Below are positions 1,885 through 14,815 of a DNA stretch of 21,944 nt, piece by piece. The notes below the pieces were generated by a model. It saw only the letters and a list, made by a program, of their open reading frames with translations. It was not told the DNA's origin and ran no database searches. A program made the translations under genes and the position numbers. The DNA lies in IMG/VR virus record IMGVR_UViG_3300024344_000146, positions 1-21,944 of that record; one strand, written 5' to 3'. Within the stretch, counting starts at the first letter, position 1, and the number at the start of each line of letters is the position of its first letter. The stretch comes from a virus.

Positions 1885-3090
1885 ATGAAAACCGACCTCA
1901 AAAACGAAATCACCACCAGCCTGGACGAAATCGCCACCACTCGGGACGGACGCGACATCACACGCGGCCATGTCGATAGCCTGCCGCTGCTACCCGCCAC
2001 CGACCGGCTGCTATCACTCAAAGGTAGCGGCGACCTGCTGATCTATCAGGAAGTGCTGCGCGATGAACAAGTCAAAGCCTGTTTCGAGCAACGTGCGCGC
2101 GCGGTGATCGCCAAGCCCTGGGAAGTCATCCCCGGCGGCGATAAGCGCATCGACAAACAAGCGGCAGCATTCATCGAGCAGCAACTCAACAGTATTCCCT
2201 TCGACAGCATCACCGAAAAAATGCTCTATGGCATCTTCTATGGTTACGCAGTGAGCGAGCCGATTTATGCGGTGGAGGAGGGCAAGATTGTGCTCGACAC
2301 GACGCGTGGTGGCATCAAAGTACGCGACCGCCGCCGCTTTGGTTTCGCGCCGGATATGTCGCTACGCCTTAAGACATCCACCAATCCGATGGGCGAGGCC
2401 TTGCCGGATAAAAAATTCTGGACCTTCGCCACCGGCAGCGATCACGATGACGAACCCTATGGTTTAGGTTTGGCACACTGGCTTTACTGGCCGGTGTTCT
2501 TCAAACGCAGCGGCATTAAATTTTGGCTGATCTTTCTGGAGAAGTTCGGTAGCCCGACCGCACTGGGCAAATATCAACCCGGCACCGCCAAAGAAGATCA
2601 GGACAAACTGCTATCTGCCCTGCAAGACATCCAGACCGACAGCGCAATCATCTTCCCCGAAGGCATGAGTGCCGAACTGCTGGAAGCCACACGCGGCGGC
2701 ACGGCGGATTACACCTCACTTTACGACCGCATGGATGCCGCTATCGCCCGCGCCACACTCGGGCAAACCGCCAGCACACAAGGCACCCCCGGCAAACTTG
2801 GCAACGATGACCTACAAGGCAACGTACGCGACGACATCGTGCGTGCCGATGCAGACCTCATCTGCATGAGCCTCAACGCCACCATCGTTAAATGGCTAAC
2901 CGAATGGAATTTCCCCGGCGCCGCCCTGCCGCAAGTGTGGCGAAAATGCGCCGATGCAACAGACACCAACCTGACAGCAGAACGTGACAGCAAGATTGTA
3001 GAGATGGGATTCAAACCGACGCTGAAATATATACAGGATACCTATGGCGGAGAGTGGGTGGAGGAGGATGAGGCAGGTAAGAAAAAATAA
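1885..3090 (+). CDS. Phage portal protein, DUF935 family (Mu gp29-like)
   Basis: Portal subunit forming the ring at the capsid vertex through which DNA enters and to which the tail attaches. The 401-residue protein has the typical DUF935 opening (TRDGRDITRG near residue 19, LLSLKGSGDLLIYQEVLRDEQV) and the core segments KPWEVIPGG, EKFGSPTALGKY and LGQTASTQGTPGKLGND. The ATG follows GGAG at good spacing. Mu gp29 and most relatives are near 500 residues. This one stops soon after YIQDTYGGEW with a charged tail EEDEAGKKK, so roughly 100 C-terminal residues seem missing. The stop falls exactly where the non-phage island begins, so the tail was probably lost or replaced there. Family confident; truncation inferred. 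Confidence 0.9.
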   Translation: MKTDLKNEITTSLDEIATTRDGRDITRGHVDSLPLLPATDRLLSLKGSGDLLIYQEVLRDEQVKACFEQRARAVIAKPWEVIPGGDKRIDKQAAAFIEQQLNSIPFDSITEKMLYGIFYGYAVSEPIYAVEEGKIVLDTTRGGIKVRDRRRFGFAPDMSLRLKTSTNPMGEALPDKKFWTFATGSDHDDEPYGLGLAHWLYWPVFFKRSGIKFWLIFLEKFGSPTALGKYQPGTAKEDQDKLLSALQDIQTDSAIIFPEGMSAELLEATRGGTADYTSLYDRMDAAIARATLGQTASTQGTPGKLGNDDLQGNVRDDIVRADADLICMSLNATIVKWLTEWNFPGAALPQVWRKCADATDTNLTAERDSKIVEMGFKPTLKYIQDTYGGEWVEEDEAGKKK

Positions 3091-3142
3091 CACGGGTCTA
3101 GCGGTTTAAAGATGGCAGCACATTTTGCTTCAATAGATATTG

Positions 3143-3174
3143 TTGATATAAGGAAAACCCTGATTCAGAATCAG
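3143..3174. repeat. Inverted copy of TAAGGA-type dyad plus 15-base palindrome downstream of acpH
   Basis: On the minus strand, 3160-3143 reads GGGTTTTCCTTATATCAA, 16 of 18 bases identical to the plus strand at 3910-3927. The two copies bracket acpH as inverted repeats. Adjacent bases 3160-3174 form the palindrome CTGATTC-A-GAATCAG. It lies just past the end of acpH and could act as a terminator, a regulatory site or a boundary of imported DNA. Confidence 0.45.
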
Positions 3175-3184
3175 AAATGCCAAC

Positions 3185-3775
3185 CTACCGCTTAGATTGC
3201 GCTCTCCATTCGCTACTAAACGCTTTCGCATCAGCAAGCCAAATTTCAAAGTCGCTGGTGAATCCATCCACATCAGCAAGAAATTCTTGTTCTCCGTTAG
3301 TCAATGGGTTGGCTCGCCGGATTCGACGTGACATACGCGCTATGACATCTGCAATCTCTTCAATGTGCTGATAGCTTGTCAGCCAGTCTTCTTTGCGCAT
3401 CATCATTAATCCCAGATGTGAAGTGTCGGGTAGGTCAGGTAGTCTGTCATGGATGATGCTGTAGACATCTGCACAATATTCATTGAGGGGAATGTGATGA
3501 TGATCAGCCCAGTTTATTGCGAGCAAGTGATCGTAGATCACATCAACCAGCACGCCGGCATATCGTCTACGATGCGCTGAGATTCGCGTGCGACTTCTCC
3601 TGAAGGCAGGATTAGACTCGGCAAAATTATCTATTGCCCGGTGTAATGCAACACCTTGCGCTAGGTCATCGGGTAATGTGCCCGGCAAGACACCTTTGAT
3701 CCAGTCACCGATAACACCACCCACGATCAATGCGGGTTGGTCGCCCGCAAGCAGGGCATGCGCAAGAAAATTCAA
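3185..3775 (-). CDS. acpH: ACP phosphodiesterase (AcpH, DUF479 family), host cargo
   Basis: Acyl carrier protein phosphodiesterase, which in bacteria such as E. coli removes the 4'-phosphopantetheine group from holo-ACP, giving apo-ACP, in the cytoplasm. The 196-residue length is normal for the family. The N terminus NFLAHALLAG, the GDWIKG motif, the GVALHRAIDNFAESNP segment with its His-Arg and Asp residues, and VDVIYDHLLAINW are hallmark blocks. The start chosen is TTG at 3775, because it gives the expected N terminus and GGGAG lies seven bases upstream. It is a housekeeping gene, intact and opposite to the phage genes, in a region that should encode head proteins, so it is best read as imported host DNA. 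It is bracketed by imperfect inverted repeats. Confidence 0.88.
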   Translation of the reverse strand: MNFLAHALLAGDQPALIVGGVIGDWIKGVLPGTLPDDLAQGVALHRAIDNFAESNPAFRRSRTRISAHRRRYAGVLVDVIYDHLLAINWADHHHIPLNEYCADVYSIIHDRLPDLPDTSHLGLMMMRKEDWLTSYQHIEEIADVIARMSRRIRRANPLTNGEQEFLADVDGFTSDFEIWLADAKAFSSEWRAQSKR

Positions 3776-4117
3776 TTAACACTCCCTATAGTCGTGGCAT
3801 TTGCAACGATGCAGGATTGATGCGTTCAGCACTATCGTTGCGGGGTCTGATTGAGCAAAGCGTCTACACATAGTTGCGAAGTTTACCCTATGGGCTGAAT
3901 GCAAAATAAGGATTTTCCCTATATCAATCAGGAGATTTGAATGGTAACTTTTGGCGGTGCAGATTTTTCACTCTCGATATTATCTTAATGATGTTTTTGG
4001 ATGATGTTTTTGGCAATCAAAATTGAACGAAAGTGTTATTTCTCGTTTAAAAACAAAGAGGAGAAACTGGGTGCCTTACGGCTAGTTTTGTAACAATAAT
4101 AATAACAAGGAATAAGC
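3776..4117. other. Intergenic region between acpH and the membrane-protein gene
   Basis: A 342-base, rather AT-rich stretch between divergent genes. It holds the acpH ribosome binding site, the dyad at 3907-3921 and the ribosome binding site AAGGA before the gene at 4118. An ATG at 3941 with AGGAG six bases upstream opens a frame of only 15 codons. No other gene is visible, and no -35/-10 pair is good enough to call. Confidence 0.4.
3907..3927. repeat. TAAGGA-N3-TCCCTA dyad, upstream copy
   Basis: Bases 3907-3921 read TAAGGATTTTCCCTA, a dyad with one mismatch that is nearly identical to 5426-5440. The longer match at 3910-3927 pairs with the inverted copy at 3143-3160. It could be an operator for a regulator of the cargo genes, or an end sequence of mobile or imported DNA; the sequence does not decide. 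Confidence 0.45.
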
Positions 4118-4687
4118 ATGTTGAATGTAGCAATCATCGTCGTTATCGCAGCCTCCAGCGTGTGGGTATATCTTGACGCCACAAATTACAAAATAGGCAA
4201 AATCCCGGATAGGACTGGCATGTTTAACCTATCAGCGGGGCATTGGGGAACGGTCACGTTGCTGCTGTGGATTATTGGGTTTCCGGCATATTTGATCAAA
4301 CGAAATAGCTTGATCGAAATCGCAAAAGAACATCCGATTGATGTAAAAGGTCGCGCCGTTAAATCAGTCGTGTTCGCAACATTCGGTAGCCTCTGGGCAT
4401 TTATGTCGTTTGTCGGCGTTGCGATGACAATACTGCCGACCTGTAGCGATGCAAGCGTCAAATCTCTAGTTGGACAAATCCTCACTGAAATGTCCTCCGC
4501 CAAACGGGCGGGAGCAAAGTTCGTTTCCGTCGAAGATGAAGCAGAGCTAGGGTTTAATCAGACAACACAAATTCGCACTTGCACCGGCACGACAGTCACC
4601 ACCATCGGGGAAGATCTCACCCTCTACTCAATCATGTGGAGAAATCAAGACAGAGGCGAATATGAAGTTGAAGCGCAGCGGCAATAG
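4118..4687 (+). CDS. Putative inner-membrane protein, host-type cargo
   Basis: A 189-residue membrane protein with three predicted helices: residues 3-20, 44-62 (WGTVTLLLWIIGFPAYLI) and 86-106. The segment from VYLDATNYKIGKIP through NLSAGHWGTVTLLLW to FPAYLIKR resembles the N-terminal module of small membrane proteins found in many proteobacterial chromosomes; that comparison is from memory and gives no function. After the third helix a soluble C-terminal part begins LPTCSD and contains a second cysteine (RTCTG), probably periplasmic. The start ATG follows AAGGA at good spacing. A perfect nine-base hairpin follows the stop. Together with acpH and the haem-protein stump it forms the non-phage island. 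Not a recognised phage protein. Confidence 0.65.
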   Translation: MLNVAIIVVIAASSVWVYLDATNYKIGKIPDRTGMFNLSAGHWGTVTLLLWIIGFPAYLIKRNSLIEIAKEHPIDVKGRAVKSVVFATFGSLWAFMSFVGVAMTILPTCSDASVKSLVGQILTEMSSAKRAGAKFVSVEDEAELGFNQTTQIRTCTGTTVTTIGEDLTLYSIMWRNQDRGEYEVEAQRQ

Positions 4688-4704
4688 ATATTGATAAACG
4701 GGTA

Positions 4705-4731
4705 CAAGCCCATAATTCATACATGGGCTTG
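4705..4731. terminator. Nine-base-pair hairpin after the membrane-protein gene
   Basis: CAAGCCCAT (4705-4713) and ATGGGCTTG (4723-4731) are perfectly complementary around a nine-base loop, starting 18 bases after the stop at 4687. No U-run follows, so it may be a weak or bidirectional terminator or an RNA-stabilising hairpin between convergent genes. Confidence 0.55.
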
Positions 4732-4792
4732 GAATGAAATACAGAAAAATATATAACCTGAGTTTTAATGCTGCGCAAAAACGAAGCTCAGC

Positions 4793-5140
4793 TTATTGAT
4801 GATGCGACCCAGATTTGAGCATAGCGATAAGCTTGGTTCGCAGTATCATCATTCTATTGTAAGGCAGGCCAGCCTTAAGGAAAGTATGAAAATGCTCAGT
4901 CACATACATCACTTCATGCACTGTATGATGATAGGCAGGGCTGGTTAATCTCTCCTCAAACTGGGAGACTTGCAACCTTACATTCTGACTATCAGGCTGG
5001 CGCCTTTCAGTTATTTGAATAGTAAAATCACCCATGAGTACCTCACTTAAATGAGACAGCTGGCGTATCAATTTACTCCAATTTTCACCAATGTCAAGAT
5101 GCCGCCAAACCAATTTAGTAGGACAAGCCCGAAACTGCAT
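4793..5140 (-). CDS. Hypothetical protein or gene remnant, unknown function
   Basis: An unrecognised ORF of 115 codons from ATG 5140. That ATG has no Shine-Dalgarno sequence and an in-frame stop lies only nine bases further upstream. An internal ATG at 5035 (MGDFTIQ) has GAGG five bases before it and would give an 80-residue protein, so the shorter form may be the real one. Composition is soluble and mixed charge, with His-rich patches (YHHTVHEV, SGSHHQ) and no membrane segment or known motif. It lies beside a clear pseudogene on the same strand in imported DNA, so it may itself be a fragment. Existence and function are both uncertain. Confidence 0.35.
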   Translation of the reverse strand: MQFRACPTKLVWRHLDIGENWSKLIRQLSHLSEVLMGDFTIQITERRQPDSQNVRLQVSQFEERLTSPAYHHTVHEVMYVTEHFHTFLKAGLPYNRMMILRTKLIAMLKSGSHHQ

Positions 5141-5235
5141 TGCAACGCGCTTTACGTCTGAATTGGGGTATCCGGCACTGCCGGAAACGCCAAGCTGTCC
5201 TCACTATTCAGCAGCGTCATGCTTTAGTCATTGCT

Positions 5236-5397
5236 TCACAAAGGACGCTTAATGCTCACAGCACCGCGAATTTGCCCGACGCGGTATCCGGTTGCCGCGT
5301 CATGGGGGTATTCGGCATCCAAGCGTGCTTTTACCTTGTCCGAAATCTCACTGGCAGAGCCATGACAAGCCATACATCGAGGCTTAAAAGGTAAGTA
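5236..5397 (-). pseudogene. C-terminal remnant of a Tll0287-like (DUF3365) haem-domain protein
   Basis: Reading the minus strand, an open frame from 5397 to the stop at 5236-5238 encodes a haem motif CMACH, then SASEISDKVKARLDAEYP, then DAATGYRVGQIRGA and the terminal SIKRPL. This order (CxxCHG, a helix ending in YP, a DxATGY.VG.IRGA block and a final ..RPL) is the C-terminal signature of Tll0287-like / DUF3365 haem domains, often found as periplasmic sensors or small cytochromes. Only about 53 residues remain: a stop lies just upstream (TAA at 5400-5398) and no start or N-terminal half is present. It is therefore a truncated host gene, and supports a host origin for the island. Confidence 0.75.
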
Positions 5398-5425
5398 TTA
5401 AAGGGAGCGGGAGCGTTATTAAAAA

Positions 5426-5440
5426 TAAGGATTTTCCTTA
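5426..5440. repeat. Perfect TAAGGA-TTT-TCCTTA dyad at the right edge of the island
   Basis: TAAGGATTTTCCTTA is a perfect inverted repeat with six-base arms. It matches 3907-3921 at 14 of 15 positions and the inverted copy near 3149-3163 at 13 of 15. It lies 45 bases before the phage late promoter, so copies of this dyad occur near both edges of the island. Confidence 0.45.
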
Positions 5441-5484
5441 GCACTCAGCCCCTAGCCCAAAACTTTTCAAGCCCACTTTTCCCC

Positions 5485-5535
5485 CGGAAACCCTTCCGTC
5501 TTAACTGTCCTTGCCGCTTTCGCCATTATGGCGGC
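5485..5535 (+). promoter_or_regulatory. Putative phage late promoter for the head module
   Basis: The dyad CGGAA-ACCC-TTCCG (5485-5498) is followed by TTAACT (5501-5506), 17 bases, CATTAT (5524-5529), six bases and the ATG at 5536. The same arrangement with the same spacings lies before gpN at 14765-14815. The dyad centre (5491.5) is 44.5 bases before the ATG. If transcription starts at or next to the ATG, as the -10 spacing predicts, this is where Mor/C-type activators sit at Mu promoters. No Shine-Dalgarno sequence precedes the ATG, which fits a leaderless message. Spacing and repetition are seen; promoter function is inferred. Confidence 0.6.
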
Positions 5536-6723
5536 ATGAAAACGACGACTAAACAAATCCAAATCTTTAAGCCGGGCAAGCATGTCGCGATGAGCGGTGT
5601 GGCTTTGTCCTTTTCCGAAACTGAGCTTGCGGCTACGGTGGCTGCTTATGACCCTGCCAAGCATGAAGCACCCCTGGTGGTGGGGCATCCTAAACATGAC
5701 GACCCGGCCTATGGTTGGGTGCAGTCGTTGGCGTTTGCTGACGGTATCGAAGCCAGCCCGCATCAGGTCGATCCGGCGTTCGCCGAGATGGTCGAGCGCG
5801 GTGCGTTCAAAAAAATCTCTGCGTCGTTCTATGCACCTGACTCACCCAGCAATCCGGTACCGGGTGTTTACTATCTGCGCCATGTTGGTTTTCTCGGTGC
5901 GCAGCCACCTGCGGTTAAAGGTTTGCGTGCGGTAGAGTTTGCCGATGCCCCGGTGCATTCAGATAACAACGAGTTCGCTGAGATACTTGGACTTACCGAA
6001 ACAGGCGTAATCGAATTTGCCGACTGGGGCGATACGCAGCAGGCCAGCATTTTGCGCAATTTGCGCGAGTGGATCATCGGCAAGTTCGGTCGTAATGAGG
6101 CGGATAAAGCAGTGCCTAGCCATCTCGTACAAACGGCGGAAGCCCGCAAGTCAGAAACCAATAATAACGATAGCGAGGGAGCGGTTCCGGCTCCTGCATT
6201 CAATGAACCACAACCAGAAGGAGATCCCATGTCTGATGCAGACAAGGCGCGCTTAGCCGCGCTCGAAAAACAGAACGATGAGTTACAGAAAAGTCAGGCC
6301 GCATTCGCCGAGGCCGAAAAGAAACACAAGCGCGATGCGGCACACGCTGAGCATATTGCATTCGCAGACGGTTTGATCGGTGAAGGCAAGTTGCTGCCTG
6401 CCAATAAGGACGTGACCGTCGCCACGCTGGACTTCATGTCGGCACAAGACGAGCCGATTTTGTTCGGTGAGGGTGACGGCAATGGCGATACTGGCCAGCC
6501 ACTCATCAACGCATACAAAGCATCGCTACAGGCCAATCCCAAGCTGGTGGAGTTCGGCGAACTGGCAGGTGCAGCGTTAGACGAAAACGATGCACTCAAT
6601 TTCGCCGCCCCTGCCGGATTCACCGTCGATGCAGAACGGCTGACGTTGCACCAAAAGGCTCTGTCTTATCAGGCGACCCACCAAACCAGTTATGACGTCG
6701 CGCTCGTTGCGGTCAGCGCATAA
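5536..6723 (+). CDS. Phage prohead protease (Mu I-like) with C-terminal scaffold region
   Basis: Capsid maturation protease of the Mu I protein family, which cleaves scaffold and itself during prohead assembly. The N-terminal half of the 395-residue protein has typical blocks: IFKPGKHVAMSG, APLVVGHPKHDDPAYGWV, ERGAFKKISASFY and PGVYYLRHVGFLGAQPPAVKGL. From about residue 232 it becomes a coiled-coil-rich scaffold region (RLAALEKQNDELQKSQ...AEAEKKHKRDAAHAEH). An internal ATG there carries its own ribosome binding site. The ATG at 5536 has no Shine-Dalgarno sequence and follows a putative late promoter by six bases. This opens the head module after the island. Confidence 0.9.
   Translation: MKTTTKQIQIFKPGKHVAMSGVALSFSETELAATVAAYDPAKHEAPLVVGHPKHDDPAYGWVQSLAFADGIEASPHQVDPAFAEMVERGAFKKISASFYAPDSPSNPVPGVYYLRHVGFLGAQPPAVKGLRAVEFADAPVHSDNNEFAEILGLTETGVIEFADWGDTQQASILRNLREWIIGKFGRNEADKAVPSHLVQTAEARKSETNNNDSEGAVPAPAFNEPQPEGDPMSDADKARLAALEKQNDELQKSQAAFAEAEKKHKRDAAHAEHIAFADGLIGEGKLLPANKDVTVATLDFMSAQDEPILFGEGDGNGDTGQPLINAYKASLQANPKLVEFGELAGAALDENDALNFAAPAGFTVDAERLTLHQKALSYQATHQTSYDVALVAVSA
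6229..6723 (+). CDS. Nested in-frame scaffold protein (Mu Z-like)
   Basis: Inside the protease gene and in the same frame, ATG 6229 is preceded by AAGGAG with five bases between, a much stronger ribosome binding site than that of the full-length gene. The product (164 residues, starting MSDADKARLAALEKQ) consists of a charged coiled coil followed by an Ala-rich tail, which fits a capsid scaffold. Phage Mu and many other phages make scaffold from an internal start within the protease gene. The site is plainly visible; expression is inferred. Confidence 0.75.
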   Translation: MSDADKARLAALEKQNDELQKSQAAFAEAEKKHKRDAAHAEHIAFADGLIGEGKLLPANKDVTVATLDFMSAQDEPILFGEGDGNGDTGQPLINAYKASLQANPKLVEFGELAGAALDENDALNFAAPAGFTVDAERLTLHQKALSYQATHQTSYDVALVAVSA

Positions 6724-10786: not shown

Positions 10787-11158
10787 ATGTCAATCGAATA
10801 CGACGGCGAAATAGTAGTCGAGATCAACGGTCAAGAAGTCGATGTAGTGTCATTCGACGAAACAGTCAACGGAGGGCGCAAGGCGGTTAAAACCATGAAC
10901 CGCACCGGCCACGCCAAAGGCAGCGTAAGCGGTATGAAAACCTACGAGCTGAAAATCACCGCGCCCGCCCCTGCGTCTGGAGAATACGACTGGGAAGCCA
11001 TGCTGGATGCACAGATCGTCATCTACCCGCTGGGTAACACATCCAAGCGCACCACCTTTCAAGACTGCAACGTCACCAGCATCAACTCGCGCTATCAACT
11101 CGAAGGCGAAATGGTGCGCGACATCAGCCTGTATTGTTTGAGGAAGGTTAATCTATGA
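10787..11158 (+). CDS. Tail tube protein (Mu gpM-like)
   Basis: A 123-residue tail tube subunit forming the inner conduit beneath the sheath. Visible family blocks are a G-E-I-V-V-E-I-N-G-Q-E opening, a GGRKAVKTMNRTGHAKG loop and a late TTFQDCNVTSINSRYQLEGE segment with a C-terminal beta strand. Length is typical. ATG 10787 has GGAG upstream. The stop overlaps the ATG of the chaperone gene by four bases (ATGA), so the two are co-translated. Confidence 0.92.
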   Translation: MSIEYDGEIVVEINGQEVDVVSFDETVNGGRKAVKTMNRTGHAKGSVSGMKTYELKITAPAPASGEYDWEAMLDAQIVIYPLGNTSKRTTFQDCNVTSINSRYQLEGEMVRDISLYCLRKVNL

Positions 11159-11643
11159 GCAGCTTACTCGATAAGCTCAAGGCCGGTCGCGCAGCAACCT
11201 GCGAGACCACCCTCAACGGGGTGAAGATCGGCCTGCGGGTACTGACCGAGCAAGACTATCTCGATGCACAAATCGCCACCGAAGTCGCCATGATAGATGC
11301 CGGGGTAGAACTTAGCCTGTCCTCTTCCGAAGCCTTTGAATCAGAAAAAGCCAGCCAGTTGCTCTACCGCGCCATGATAGACCCGGTCACAAAAAAACCG
11401 CTGGCAGACTCTGCCCTGGCGTTGCGTGAAGTCATCACCCGTGATGAAAAATCCGCGCTGATCGAAGCCTATCTCGAACACGAAAAAACCTTCTCGCCCT
11501 CCGAACGGACGATGGGGGATGAAGAATTCATCGCACTGGTCGAGACAGTAAAAAAAACGCCGGAGAATCCGCCTTTGAACGATTTAAGTACCGCCATGCT
11601 GAAAAAGCTTATCACTGCTTTGGCCTCCCCGCCTGCGACCTGA
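11155..11643 (+). CDS. Tail assembly chaperone, unshifted form (Mu gp41-like)
   Basis: A 162-residue protein of the gp41 tail assembly chaperone family, analogous to lambda G and P2 E. It helps the tape measure protein fold and recruit tube subunits. It is mostly helical and acidic, with a LLDKLKAGRA opening, then DYLDAQIATEVAMID and LYRAMIDPVTKKPLADSA. It overlaps the tube gene by four bases. At GTA-AAA-AAA-ACG (11548-11559) a run of eight A residues permits a -1 shift into a long downstream frame. The unshifted product continues to TGA at 11641-11643. Confidence 0.88.
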   Translation: MSSLLDKLKAGRAATCETTLNGVKIGLRVLTEQDYLDAQIATEVAMIDAGVELSLSSSEAFESEKASQLLYRAMIDPVTKKPLADSALALREVITRDEKSALIEAYLEHEKTFSPSERTMGDEEFIALVETVKKTPENPPLNDLSTAMLKKLITALASPPAT

Positions 11644-11780
11644 CCGAAGGGCAATGGCTATGGATATTAGGAATGGTTGCTGCTGAGATGGAAGAACAGC
11701 GTCGCGTCAGAGGTGGCTCTGGGGATGCGAAGCGGCATCATTACAAGGGGGCTAGGCGGAAGGGTCAGTCAGGAAGGTGA
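11155..11780 (+). CDS. Tail assembly chaperone, -1 frameshift product (join 11155-11556 with 11556-11780)
   Basis: Slipping back one base at the A8 run (11550-11557) continues translation as AAC-GCC-GGA from 11556 and reads 74 further codons to TGA 11778-11780, giving about 208 residues. The -1 frame is clearly coding: NAGESAFERFKYRHAEKA, then CFGLPACDLTEGQWLWILG, then a basic tail RRVRGG...AKRHHYKGARRKGQ. The ACDLTEGQWLW and basic-tail features suit the 'T' extension of G/GT-type chaperones that contacts the tape measure. This exactly parallels frameshifted chaperones of other long-tailed phages. The slip site and continuing frame are seen; use and efficiency are inferred. Confidence 0.8.
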
Positions 11781-12017
11781 AAAAAACACCATGCCAAGAA
11801 ATAATAAAGCGGCAACCGATAAGAAAATTATTGGCATTGCTTTCTCAGTCCATGATGCCTCCGTTGAGGAAAACCAACCTGTCAGGCTCTTCACCATCTG
11901 CGGCAGTGCTATCAGGGCTGACAGCGATAAACCAGCACCAATCAATTCCACCGAAGTAAGTCCGAGTTGATGGAGGATCAGGAGTAGCAGGAATATCACT
12001 AAAATCTTAAATGTCAT
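11769..12017 (-). CDS. Small three-helix membrane protein, paralogue A
   Basis: An 82-residue, very hydrophobic protein. Helix 1 is at about residues 4-21 (FKILVIFLLLLIL), helix 2 at 26-46, and helix 3 at 61-79 after a polar, Trp-containing linker (GWFSSTEASWTEK). It shares architecture and its TFKI...FLL.LIL start with two further minus-strand genes at 12154 and 13959. The ATG follows TGTTATAAT by six bases with no ribosome binding site, so a leaderless transcript is likely. Its 3' end overlaps the end of the chaperone frameshift ORF by 12 bases, tail to tail. Function unknown; candidates are superinfection exclusion, a holin-like role or another lysogenic conversion function. None is shown by sequence. 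Confidence 0.6.
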   Translation of the reverse strand: MTFKILVIFLLLLILHQLGLTSVELIGAGLSLSALIALPQMVKSLTGWFSSTEASWTEKAMPIIFLSVAALLFLGMVFFSPS

Positions 12018-12023
12018 AGGAAA

Positions 12024-12032
12024 ATTATAACA
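12024..12032 (-). promoter_or_regulatory. Extended -10 promoter of membrane gene A
   Basis: On the minus strand this reads TGTTATAAT, a perfect -10 hexamer with an upstream TGn. The hexamer (12024-12029) ends six bases before the ATG at 12017. No -35 is obvious, as is common for extended -10 promoters. The same element precedes membrane genes B and C. Confidence 0.55.
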
Positions 12033-12033
12033 A

Positions 12034-12084
12034 ATGAAAAGTGACAGTCATCATACTGTAAATAGACAGCCCCAAGGATGTTGA
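12034..12084 (+). pseudogene. Vestigial tape-measure 5' end, copy 1
   Basis: ATG 12034 opens a 16-codon frame (MKSDSHHTVNRQ...). It aligns with the real tape measure start at 12540 (MNNDRNHTSTLL) in residues, in the preceding ATAACAAATG/ATAGCAAATG bases and in position relative to the divergent membrane gene. It ends at TGA 12082-12084 where the second chaperone-end fragment begins. Best read as the truncated start of a duplicated tape measure gene. Confidence 0.45.
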
Positions 12085-12196
12085 AGCGAAAGGAAAGCGT
12101 CGCATCAGTAGTATTTCTGAAGATGCGAAACGCCATCATTTTAAGAGAGCTAGCTATTTAGTCAGGAGAGACCATATTGATGGTACCCCGAGATAA
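12077..12196 (+). pseudogene. Duplicated chaperone 3' end, copy 2
   Basis: The frame DVEAKGKRRISSISEDAKRHH, continuing FKRASYLVRR and ending at TAA 12194-12196, matches the end of the chaperone frameshift product (EMEEQRRVRGGSGDAKRHHYKGARRKG). The DNA also matches: GCGTCGC-TCAG, GATGCGAA-CG-CATCATT and GAG-GCTAG appear in the same order at both places. There is no start or upstream part, so it is a fragment, followed by a membrane gene exactly as in copy 1. Confidence 0.65.
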
Positions 12197-12522
12197 ACTA
12201 ATACGGACACGATAGCAAAAAGTATCAACGTTTCGGTCAACGAAAACGAATAGTTTCCAGAGGACTCCTCCGACTCCTGATCGGACTGCTCTGATTGCAT
12301 CGAAGAAATTGCCCTTAAAACAAAAATCAGAATAAACGCTAGAAGATACGACAATATAAGCAGCATAAAAGACAGTACAGAAATAGCACCTATTGCATCC
12401 TCCAGAGAGAATCTCTCTTCCAGAGACGATCGATATTCCAGTGGCACTGCAAAGAAATATGAAAGTATCAGAATAAGCAAAAATACAAAGAATATCTTGA
12501 ACGTCGTTATATATATATTCAT
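12154..12522 (-). CDS. Small three-helix membrane protein, paralogue B
   Basis: A 122-residue membrane protein from ATG 12522 (the frame is open 16 codons further upstream). It has helices at about residues 8-28 (FKIFFVFLLILILSYFF), 44-72 and 97-117. A Ser/Glu/Gln-rich acidic linker (SSMQSEQSDQESEESSG) separates helices 2 and 3. The DAIGAISVLSF...LSYLLAFILIFVLR block parallels DGLIGISIVLFVIAYLIAFVLR in paralogue C. The start was chosen because a TGCTATACT promoter lies seven bases upstream, as in A and C. The gene is clearly more AT-rich than the flanking tail genes, suggesting foreign origin. It lies divergent from the tape measure gene, whose start overlaps this promoter region. Function unknown. 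Confidence 0.6.
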   Translation of the reverse strand: MNIYITTFKIFFVFLLILILSYFFAVPLEYRSSLEERFSLEDAIGAISVLSFMLLILSYLLAFILIFVLRAISSMQSEQSDQESEESSGNYSFSLTETLILFAIVSVLVYLGVPSIWSLLTK

Positions 12523-12529
12523 ATGAGGA

Positions 12530-12538
12530 AGTATAGCA
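12530..12538 (-). promoter_or_regulatory. Extended -10 promoter of membrane gene B
   Basis: On the minus strand this reads TGCTATACT; the hexamer (12530-12535) ends seven bases before ATG 12522. It abuts the tape measure ATG at 12540 on the other strand, so transcription of B would start within the tape measure leader. Confidence 0.5.
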
Positions 12539-12539
12539 A

Positions 12540-13787
12540 ATGAACAATGATCGCAATCACACGTCGACACTGCTGGTGCAGGCTACTCCCGAGGCTATGG
12601 CAGTGATGCGCCGCTTTAACGAGCAAAGCACACAGGGACTTGGTGCGGTGCGTCGTGACTTCAAACAGCCGCAGTCAACTGGCCTGGAAGCGGTCGGTAT
12701 AAAAGGTGAGCGTGGCCTAAACCTCACTGGAGCAATGACACAGGTGTTGCAGAAATCTGCCTCCGCCAATAGTCCTGAGCAGGCCAAGGCGAAAATGCAG
12801 TATGGACTGGTGAATAGCACCAGCGCACAATATGTAGAAGCGTTGAAAAATTTTGACATCGATGTCGAAAAATTTGCGCCGGATGGAAAGTTTCGCGGCG
12901 AAGGCGGTGTAGAGGGTTTGCTGGAGTTAGTCGATGTGATGAAAGCAAAAGGACTGGAAGATAACCTCAAGACAGGTCAGGCAGGCTTTAATAACCGGGA
13001 AACCAATCAACTGATTCAAGCCTTGATGGAAAACTCGGACATCATCCGCAGCGAGGTGGCTTCCGCAGATCAAACGGCAAAAAGCAAACGGCTCAGCACT
13101 GATTTTGCCGAAGCTAAACAGGCTGACTTCGGCAAAATCAAGGCGGCAGAAATTCAGGTTGATAAGCTGACATCCTCCGATAGTTCTGACAAAATCACCG
13201 CTAACGCTAGCAATTCACCGGGGAAATCGGCGGACGATACTGCACCGACAGGCGGGCTTGGCTTAGAAATGGGCGTGATAGGGGGTTTGACCACGGCCCT
13301 AGCTGGGGTGAGTTTGTACAAAAACCGCAGGAAAAAATCGGGTGGTAAGACGGGGAGGTTCGCTAACGTTGCTGGCTCAATGGATGTACAGAGCGTATTT
13401 GTCACCAACTGGCCGAGCGGAATGCTTTCGAAAGGAGAGCCATTACGACAAAAACGCAATGAGAAAAATCGTGAAGCCGCCATGCGGGGAGGCAATGGTA
13501 AACCCAGCAAGGGTGGCAGAACTTTGGGGCTAATTAATAAGGTGCGTTCGCTTGACTATCTGAAAGAGTCATTTTCGTTTGGCCGAGACGTAGTTGGCCC
13601 TGTGGTGCGCGATGGTATAGATTCGCTGGTGAGCGCCGTATCCGGCGAAGAAACGAAACTAGGTTTTTATCTACATGATTTAATTAACGGCAAGCAAGAA
13701 CCCACCAAGGTTGTCGTCGAGGTGCAAAACGGCAACATCGTTGCATCGGTTGATCAAGCGCATACACGCAACGCTGCTCGCCAATAA
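12540..13787 (+). CDS. Tail tape measure protein, short form
   Basis: Tape measure protein, which sets tail length and occupies the tube lumen. The 415-residue protein has a helical, Gln/Ala-rich N-terminal half containing a block like the later part of TP901-type tape measure cores (AKMQYGLVNSTSAQYVEAL, then FRGEGGVEGLLELVDVMKAKG). A hydrophobic Gly-rich segment follows (GLEMGVIGGLTTALAGVSLY, about residues 241-260). The C terminus, VVVEVQNGNIVASV, is typical of Mu-like tape measures. Most relatives are much longer, so the first part of the core is probably missing. By the usual relation of about 1.5 angstrom per residue the tail would be near 60 nm. GAGGAAG lies 11 bases before the ATG, a poor distance. 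It does not directly follow the chaperone because of the inserted membrane genes. Confidence 0.7.
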   Translation: MNNDRNHTSTLLVQATPEAMAVMRRFNEQSTQGLGAVRRDFKQPQSTGLEAVGIKGERGLNLTGAMTQVLQKSASANSPEQAKAKMQYGLVNSTSAQYVEALKNFDIDVEKFAPDGKFRGEGGVEGLLELVDVMKAKGLEDNLKTGQAGFNNRETNQLIQALMENSDIIRSEVASADQTAKSKRLSTDFAEAKQADFGKIKAAEIQVDKLTSSDSSDKITANASNSPGKSADDTAPTGGLGLEMGVIGGLTTALAGVSLYKNRRKKSGGKTGRFANVAGSMDVQSVFVTNWPSGMLSKGEPLRQKRNEKNREAAMRGGNGKPSKGGRTLGLINKVRSLDYLKESFSFGRDVVGPVVRDGIDSLVSAVSGEETKLGFYLHDLINGKQEPTKVVVEVQNGNIVASVDQAHTRNAARQ

Positions 13788-13792
13788 TTCCC

Positions 13793-13846
13793 CGGAATGT
13801 TTTCCGTCTTAACTACGTCACATTCGCCTAAGGGTAATCTCGCAAC
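13793..13846 (+). promoter_or_regulatory. Decayed copy of the late promoter element
   Basis: The dyad CGGAA-TGTT-TTCCG (13793-13806), TTAACT (13809-13814) and TAATCT (13835-13840) repeat the elements before the protease and gpN genes. Here the -35 to -10 spacing is 20 instead of 17 and no ATG follows. It lies directly after the tape measure stop and before the third chaperone-end fragment, so it is probably a duplicated, inactive copy of the promoter that originally separated tape measure and gpN. Confidence 0.55.
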
Positions 13847-13944
13847 ACTTCTATAGGCATTTGGAATCGCTACTTTCGGAGATAGAAGAAGATTGTCGAG
13901 TCAGTAGCGATTCTGAAAATGACGAATTGTCATTTCTACAATAA
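13846..13944 (+). pseudogene. Duplicated chaperone 3' end, copy 3
   Basis: The frame reads HFYRHLESLLSEIEEDCRVS, then SDSENDELSFLQ and TAA at 13942-13944. It is colinear with WLWILGMVAAEMEEQRRVRG in the chaperone frameshift product. At DNA level GGAGATAGAAGAA, GTCGAGTCAG, ATTCTGAAAATG and ATGCTAGGAG align with the copies near 11695 and 12095. This is the most diverged copy and is followed by membrane gene C. Confidence 0.5.
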
Positions 13945-13958
13945 TGCTAGGAGAAAAA

Positions 13959-14261
13959 TCAGGCGACTTTTGATATGTCATACCATATCCGCAAAGAAAT
14001 TAAGGCGAGCACGACTATCCACATCACCACTTGTGACCAATTCCACTTCGCATCGGATGGCTGTGAATCAGATTCATCTGACGGGTAAAAAAATATCCTA
14101 AGAACAAACGCTATTAAATACGCGATAACGAACAGAACAATAGAAATCCCTATCAGACCATCCAGAACCATTTGATCATCCAGAGAAAATCCGAATGCAA
14201 ATAATAAAAAGAGTAGCAAAAGTACCAGGAAGATATTGGATGCCATATTAAATGTCTTCAT
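13959..14261 (-). CDS. Small three-helix membrane protein, paralogue C
   Basis: A 100-residue membrane protein from ATG 14261 (the frame is open eight codons further). Helices are at about residues 7-26 (ASNIFLVLLLLFLLFAFGF), 34-58 (LIGISIVLFVIAYLIAFVLRIFF) and 79-96. A polar linker SDESDSQPSDAKWNW lies between helices 2 and 3. It resembles paralogue B most closely in helix 2 and in the acidic linker. The start was chosen for its TGTTATACT element six bases upstream. It sits between a decayed late promoter with a chaperone-end fragment and a vestigial tape measure start, so it is the third copy of the repeated unit. Function unknown. Confidence 0.6.
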   Translation of the reverse strand: MKTFNMASNIFLVLLLLFLLFAFGFSLDDQMVLDGLIGISIVLFVIAYLIAFVLRIFFYPSDESDSQPSDAKWNWSQVVMWIVVLALISLRIWYDISKVA

Positions 14262-14267
14262 TGCGAG

Positions 14268-14276
14268 AGTATAACA
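14268..14276 (-). promoter_or_regulatory. Extended -10 promoter of membrane gene C
   Basis: On the minus strand this reads TGTTATACT; the hexamer (14268-14273) ends six bases before ATG 14261. The next bases on the plus strand (14277-14300) keep similarity to the tape measure start (ACAATGACAG against ACAATGATCG), marking the third vestige of that gene. Confidence 0.5.
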
Positions 14277-14374
14277 AGTCGACAATGACAGAAACGCAGC
14301 AACTCAGTAGCTAGATAACGGCAAGACGCCATTAAGCTTTCCCAAGAACGTTCGATTTTCATTATGATAGGCCT

Positions 14375-14719
14375 ATGCGTTTATTGCTTATCTCACTATT
14401 GAGCCTGTCACTCGCAGCGTGTGAAACGGTGGTATTAAAGCCGCCCCCTGATATTGCTGTTGATCACAGCGTTAAGCCGACTTACACATGGCTTAGCCAA
14501 AACGTATTCGGCGAGATTTGTTCATATTGCCACGCCGCCCGCCCCCCTTTCCTGATGGATTACCGCAGCATTCAAAACGTTGTTAAGGCTGGAAAGCCTT
14601 TGGAAAGCCGGCTGTATTACATGGTCGCCACCGAGCGAATGCCTAAAGGGTCCAAGCTGTCTGAAGAAAAGAAATGGGCGATCTATCATTGGATACAGAA
14701 CGGCGCTAAGAACGATTAG
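14375..14719 (+). CDS. Lipoprotein with c-type haem motif (cytochrome-like cargo)
   Basis: A 114-residue exported lipoprotein. It has a signal peptide of Leu/Ser-rich helix ending in the lipobox LAAC (lipidated Cys16). The mature part carries a single c-type haem motif CSYCH (Cys49, Cys52, His53) and a later MPKG (Met89), a likely sixth ligand. It then has helix SEEKKWAIYHWIQNGAK, the pattern seen at the end of small cytochrome c domains in which a haem site is followed by '.MP.G...l...e...i..WI..GA'. This predicts a one-haem electron carrier anchored to a membrane facing the periplasm. It has no known role in a virion and lies between a rearranged tail segment and gpN, so it is probably host-derived cargo. 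Haem motif seen; electron-transfer role inferred. Confidence 0.72.
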   Translation: MRLLLISLLSLSLAACETVVLKPPPDIAVDHSVKPTYTWLSQNVFGEICSYCHAARPPFLMDYRSIQNVVKAGKPLESRLYYMVATERMPKGSKLSEEKKWAIYHWIQNGAKND

Positions 14720-14764
14720 CTTTATTACTAGCCGCCACTCCCCGGCTTAAGCTCAGGTTTCCCC

Positions 14765-14815
14765 CGGAACGCTTTCCGTCTTAACTGTGCATTCGCACTT
14801 GCGTAATCTCGCACT
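14765..14815 (+). promoter_or_regulatory. Putative phage late promoter for the baseplate module
   Basis: Dyad CGGAA-CGCT-TTCCG (14765-14778), TTAACT (14781-14786), 17 bases, TAATCT (14804-14809), six bases, ATG 14816. Every spacing equals that of the element before the protease gene, and the preceding TTTCCCC is also shared. The dyad centre lies 44.5 bases before the ATG. There is no Shine-Dalgarno sequence, which is consistent with a leaderless transcript activated by a Mor/C-like factor bound at the dyad. Confidence 0.6.

Follow-up and report, generated by a model that had tools for sequence, protein, structure and literature searches.

Three small antisense membrane genes (A, B and C), each lying head-to-head with a tape measure protein (TMP) gene start or its remnant, were found in an IMG/VR virus record of 21,944 bases, the whole of which was analysed and is called the window here. 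We consider them best explained as a lysogeny-expressed superinfection-exclusion (Sie) moron multiplied into a small array, and assign this reading a probability of about 0.55. According to the ORF list and the Pfam and PHROG matches, the window is the structural half of a Mu-like myophage, with terminase, Mu portal, protease, capsid, gp36, gp37, sheath, tube, gp41 chaperone, TMP, gpN, gp44-type hub, baseplate J and fibres. The features discussed are listed in Table 1.

Table 1. Features of the chaperone-TMP region of the window.
Feature	Positions	Strand	Basis or remark
gp41-type tail assembly chaperone, short form	11155..11643	+	77% identical to L138 gp41; weak Pfam Gp41_Mu match
Chaperone frameshift extension (GT), -1 frame	11601..11779	+	Open frame ending in DAKRHHYKGARRKGQSGR and a stop
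Antisense membrane gene A, 82 aa	11769..12017	-	ORF; extended -10 six nt before ATG
Promoter of gene A (predicted), TGTTATAAT	12024..12032	-	TGNTATAMT; best -35/-10 match of region
TMP 5' remnant A (MKSDSHHTVN..., ~15 codons)	12034..12076	+	Alignment against shuffles
Chaperone 3'-end remnant B	12079..12153	+	~73% identity to copy A end, 75 nt
Antisense membrane gene B, 122 aa	12154..12522	-	ORF; homologous to C; start set by promoter
Promoter of gene B (predicted), TGCTATACT	12530..12538	-	TGNTATAMT
TMP gene, 415 aa	12540..13787	+	PHROG tape measure match; aligned to L138 TMP
Late-promoter-like element P, copy 2	13790..13844	+	Dyad GGAA-N4-TTCC
Chaperone 3'-end remnant C	13851..13958	+	Score 30 against copy A (shuffled 9.1 +/- 1.5)
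Antisense membrane gene C, 100 aa	13959..14261	-	ORF; homologous to B; start set by promoter
Promoter of gene C (predicted), TGTTATACT	14268..14276	-	TGNTATAMT
TMP 5' remnant C	14278..14322	+	Start codon lost (GTC), then DNDRNAATQ and a stop
Late-promoter-like element P, copy 3, ahead of gpN	14762..14813	+	Dyad

Three copies of the chaperone-TMP junction

The preliminary description of this DNA reported three segments that share the order chaperone end, antisense membrane gene, TMP start, and the alignments bear this out far above shuffled sequence. Segments A (11658-12076), B (12079-12584) and C (13851-14322) each run from a chaperone 3' end through a minus-strand membrane ORF to a TMP start, with order and orientation unchanged, and a three-way alignment spans all parts. 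In local DNA alignments compared with dinucleotide shuffles (1000 for the TMP starts), the chaperone ends score 33 for A-B (shuffled 9.0 +/- 1.5), 30-32 for A-C (9.1 +/- 1.5) and 20 for B-C (10.6 +/- 1.9), and the three TMP-start pairs score 20, 19 and 19 (about 10 +/- 1.8, reached by 0 of 1000 shuffles); all these pairs beat all or nearly all shuffles. Whole segments score 55 for B-C (18.7 +/- 2.9), 35 for A-B (15.3) and 37 for A-C (15.6). The TMP starts read MKSDSHHT in A, MNNDRNHT in B and (V)DNDRNAA in C. In copy A the first repeated fragment, which resembles those of B and C, is the 3' end of the chaperone frameshift extension itself (11601..11779). An AAA AAG slippery site in the gp41 frame (window 11590-11610), followed by the -1 frame extension, is as expected for a frameshifted tail chaperone.

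A local tandem triplication of the unit chaperone end - membrane gene - TMP - element P, already proposed in the preliminary description, fits these data best, because the A, B and C remnants are nearer to one another than to any of 44 relatives' junctions (maximum chaperone-end scores 22 for A, 14 for B and 18 for C), and because the NDRN TMP N-terminus, common to B and C, was seen in none of the relatives. The copies are about 30% diverged and are therefore no assembly artefact. We rejected an origin of the modules in three separate phages, as the TMP remnants are all of one type (MxxDxxHT / NDRN). A second array was seen in none of the 127 checked loci that have both TMP and gpN. The Neisseria-type loci L122 and L123 showed none either in their large gaps on the chaperone side, where mainly plus-strand ORFs occur.

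Element P consists of the dyad GGAA-N4-TTCC followed by GTCTTAACT. Its copies lie at 5482-5506, ahead of the protease gene, at 13790-13814, 3' of the copy B TMP, and at 14762-14786, ahead of gpN; the last two had been recognised before, at 13793 and 14765, and the first is an addition. A similar dyad occupies the TMP-gpN gap in relatives. Scanning with element P retrieved relatives of other chaperone types and none with the window-type gp41. Extra ORFs are present in the TMP-gpN gap of some loci (L162:4066-4350, L031:9435-10037, L134:10799-12121), and they suggest a second insertion site for accessory genes.

The same junction in relatives

Relatives were collected by a tail-sheath search, which gave 135 loci, and further by gp41 and TMP alignments. 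We scored an antisense ORF with at least two transmembrane (TM) segments and a start within -5 to 30 nt of the TMP start. One such head-to-head gene is present at 27 of 130 non-redundant Mu-like TMP starts, compared with 0 of 347 sheath, tube, gp41 and gpN starts, a control that is partly trivial because tight packing leaves little room there. The nearest relative, L138 (gp41 77% identical), and the loci L018, L162 and L217 hold one homologous antisense gene each, and a single membrane gene at the gp41-TMP junction is therefore the ancestral state, which answers a question raised by the preliminary description. Between the gp41 stop and the TMP gene, most relatives that lack the antisense gene have a gap of about 10-180 nt, and most that carry it have one of about 200-410 nt. 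Queries with gp41 and TMP against named phages gave nothing close, and extending the gp41 search to two groups of bacterial genomes, the order and the family to which the L089 Sideroxydans genome belongs, added few more junctions. Two moron traits are seen in the window, namely an extra gene between genes that are adjacent in relatives and a promoter of its own, the latter a sequence prediction.

Predicted leaderless promoters within the TMP start region

The extended -10 sequence TGNTATAMT occurs three times in all on the two strands of the window (0.70 expected), each time directly ahead of gene A, B or C, with 6, 7 and 6 nt, respectively, to the ATG. Guided by these promoters, we corrected the starts of two of the genes, B to the ATG at 12522 (122 aa) and C to the ATG at 14261 (100 aa). 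Copy A has lost about 16 nt upstream relative to B and C, and its new ATG is again exactly N6 from the -10. A -10 hexamer that ends six bases ahead of +1 sets +1 on the A of the ATG, and the geometry therefore predicts a leaderless antisense mRNA. TANNNT lies exactly 6 nt ahead of the ATG in 14 of 17 of the relatives' genes, as against 0.76% of minus-strand ATGs (p ~1e-21 to 3e-21, with loci treated as independent, which they are only partly) and as against 10 of 1778 hydrophobic control ORFs. Among relatives of the gp41 type the antisense ATG is mostly 17-18 nt from the TMP start codon. Two observations weigh against the promoter reading. The -10 of some relatives (TACCCT) is at once the complement of the TMP Shine-Dalgarno sequence, and a second, rarer class (L010, L011, L013, L031, L172, L190) has overlapping CATG starts without such a -10. 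Its genes, which overlap the TMP start codon in this way and belong partly to phages of other chaperone types, include L010:5955-6257, L013:3495-3722, L031:7049-7351, L172:3197-3391 and L190:6544-6738.

Because each TGNTATAMT lies just ahead of a membrane gene, the retained TMP 5' pieces would be the membrane genes' own promoters and hence functional sequence, only partly relics. The earlier picture of decayed phage genes beside open membrane genes thus holds for part of the flanks and probably fails for the TMP 5' piece. Downstream of B and C there are hairpins without clear T-runs, and no convincing terminator is seen at A. Lambda cI, a prophage-expressed gene, is transcribed from PRM as a leaderless mRNA. 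The window genes would share this trait, as predicted; cI, however, encodes a repressor in the immunity region, whereas the window genes are membrane genes in a tail operon.

Membrane proteins and selection

At the protein level, the relationship proposed for the copies is clear for B and C (score 102, compared with 34 +/- 6 shuffled and 49 +/- 9 composition-windowed), weaker for A and B (p ~0.01) and inseparable from hydrophobic bias for A and C (p 0.12-0.19). Protein A has the same three-segment layout as B and C, and the homology of its gene to theirs is based mainly on the flanks. Pfam, PHROGs, PADLOC and PDB sequence searches yielded neither a convincing family for the membrane proteins nor a sequence match to known Sie proteins, and direct IMG/VR search gave no close relatives of gene B or of the window TMP. 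An AlphaFold model of gene B from a three-row alignment shows three helices; with a pLDDT of 61.5 it is too weak to serve as query for a fold search. The GC content of the window membrane genes is 38-44%, compared with 51-57% in gp41, sheath and TMP; the relatives' genes match their own loci, and for this reason base composition is unusable as a moron test.

Related antisense gene pairs have dN/dS of 0.23-0.68, with 0.39 for B-C, where synonymous sites are near saturation. Values below 1 argue that the antisense genes are protein-coding and, together with the intact promoters, favour the selection on them that had been suggested from their open frames. That the antisense transcription itself is the function, silencing the chaperone or TMP in the prophage with an incidental ORF, would suit a promoter overlapping the TMP start region, but it is very improbable in view of this constraint and of the recurrent TM architecture; moreover, A and C are kept beside dead TMP starts, which leave no gene to be silenced. 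Hydrophobic antisense ORFs can arise by chance, and yet chance ORFs or unrelated insertions are scarcely credible here given the shuffle comparisons, the three TGNTATAMT sites, the TANNNT geometry, dN/dS and the 0 of 347 control starts. The gene, its promoter motif, the geometry, the duplication and the coding constraint are established at the level of sequence.

State of the prophage

The head genes gpF and gpG are absent between portal and protease (window 3090-5536), whereas relatives with a readable portal-protease stretch (e.g. L018, L004, L005) carry gpF (and gpG). The TMP of copy B, earlier taken to be full, is about 160 residues short in the alignment with the L138 TMP, the result of an in-frame loss that follows residue 43. 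Since gpF and gpG are missing and the TMP is short, the prophage is probably defective. Despite this, membrane genes A, B and C and their promoters are all intact, which fits a benefit at the level of the host; the decay may be recent.

The stretch without gpF and gpG contains a gene for an acyl carrier protein phosphodiesterase on the minus strand (3185-3775, Pfam 2.8e-55) and an ORF at 4118-4687. Between module C and gpN, the window contains an inserted lipoprotein (14375-14719) with an LAAC lipobox, a CSYCH c-type haem motif and a weak cytochrome cbb3 match (E 0.0033), possibly a phage-borne cytochrome.

Possible role in superinfection exclusion

HK97 gp15, whose gene separates that of the frameshifted tail chaperone from that of the TMP, was reportedly described as a superinfection-exclusion moron by Cumby and colleagues in 2012, and is a YebO-like protein with one TM segment. 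It resembles the window genes as a single small membrane-protein moron at the chaperone-TMP position, and in the literature the HK97 block of DNA entry depends on the tail tube or TMP. In contrast, gp15 is on the same strand and has 62 aa, while the window genes are antisense, have 2-3 TM segments, are predicted to be leaderless, are triplicated and lack a YebO match (Pfam gives none for any of the three proteins at E values as high as 1).

Prophage Sie proteins such as HK97 gp15, P22 SieA and T4 Imm block DNA entry, several of them via TMP (PMC10883804, PMC3952083, PMC11436027). HK97 hybrids with the tail tube and TMP genes of HK022 escape gp15, and Ltp of TP-J34 was escaped through TMP changes (PMC10883804). 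A TMP contacts an inner-membrane defence protein during injection, according to the SNIPE work of 2026 (PMC13190303). SieA and Imm are phage injection blockers, and SieA is a 3-TM inner-membrane protein (PMC10883804; PMC11436027); unlike the window genes, they are not at the TMP gene and not leaderless head-to-head genes, and no sequence match between them and the window genes was found.

Position, orientation, predicted lysogenic promoter and topology make exclusion at the injection step the most likely role, at slightly better than even odds. The module would be a self-contained prophage moron in which a gene for a small inner-membrane protein lies antisense and head-to-head with the TMP gene. 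In lysogeny, with the late genes silent, the gene would be transcribed from the extended -10 within the TMP ribosome-binding and start region into a leaderless mRNA that begins with the A of the start codon. The protein, if located in the inner membrane, could act as a Sie factor by obstructing the crossing of the TMP and DNA of an incoming related phage. Triplication of the unit chaperone end - gene - TMP - P in the prophage, deletion of two TMP copies down to the part holding the membrane gene's promoter, and divergence of the three genes would then have produced a small exclusion-gene array. We infer that the genes are expressed in lysogeny, that their products reside in the membrane and exclude phages with TMP as the target, and that A, B and C differ in specificity.

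The same moron and array could instead serve another lysogenic conversion, acting on host membrane physiology or interfering with a receptor or with defence. The proteins have no homology to Sie proteins, small proteins with 2-3 TM segments have many roles, and adjacency to TMP may merely mark an insertion hotspot. We nevertheless regard this as somewhat unlikely, since the gene is tied specifically to the TMP start (27 of 130 against 0 of 347) and covaries most strongly with the TMP N-terminus, while a generic conversion gene need not keep its neighbour. Distances between membrane proteins correlate with those of the TMP N-terminus at r 0.69 (partial 0.62 given gp41), compared with r 0.44 for gp41. 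This agrees with a functional pair and also with plain linkage.

The covariation also enters a stricter proposal, in which each protein excludes only the matching TMP allele and the modules are orphan immunity genes comparable to cdiI in CDI loci. Orphan cdiA-CT/cdiI arrays have a like anatomy, with stacked intact small protective genes each accompanied by a fragment of the large delivery gene (PMC3150448), and A, B and C are strongly diverged beside conserved flanks. The window modules differ in that they contain no toxin, their fragments supply the small gene's promoter and 3' flank, and the array is a local triplication. Modules of an array of the CDI orphan kind would come from different effector alleles, whereas the three TMP remnants here are of one N-terminal type and indicate one TMP lineage, not three; with linkage accounting for the covariation, we consider cognate pairs unlikely.

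Exclusion at injection by a multiplied moron, the preferred reading, invites a wider and decidedly tentative generalisation: in Mu-like contractile phages each TMP may be paired with a dedicated, fast-diverging, leaderless antisense exclusion gene, and some prophages may stack multi-specificity arrays that outlive the phage. A prophage moron with likely exclusion is of a known kind; what appears to be new is its head-to-head, leaderless layout, together with the array. The leaderless promoter in the TMP start, the wide occurrence of the head-to-head gene in Mu-like phages and the probable defectiveness of the prophage were absent from the preliminary description. Text searches of open-licence papers, which are weak evidence of absence, returned no account of either an antisense membrane gene at a Mu-like TMP start or stacked exclusion genes at TMP.

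The recurrent, promoter-defined slot at the TMP start offers candidate exclusion proteins in Mu-like phages that can be found by geometry and not by homology, and that are unrecognised by the family libraries used (Pfam, PHROGs, PADLOC). An array of three genes in a prophage that is probably defective suggests an ability of prophages to gather such genes and keep them for the host, and it renders TMP-specific exclusion by a contractile-tailed phage directly testable.
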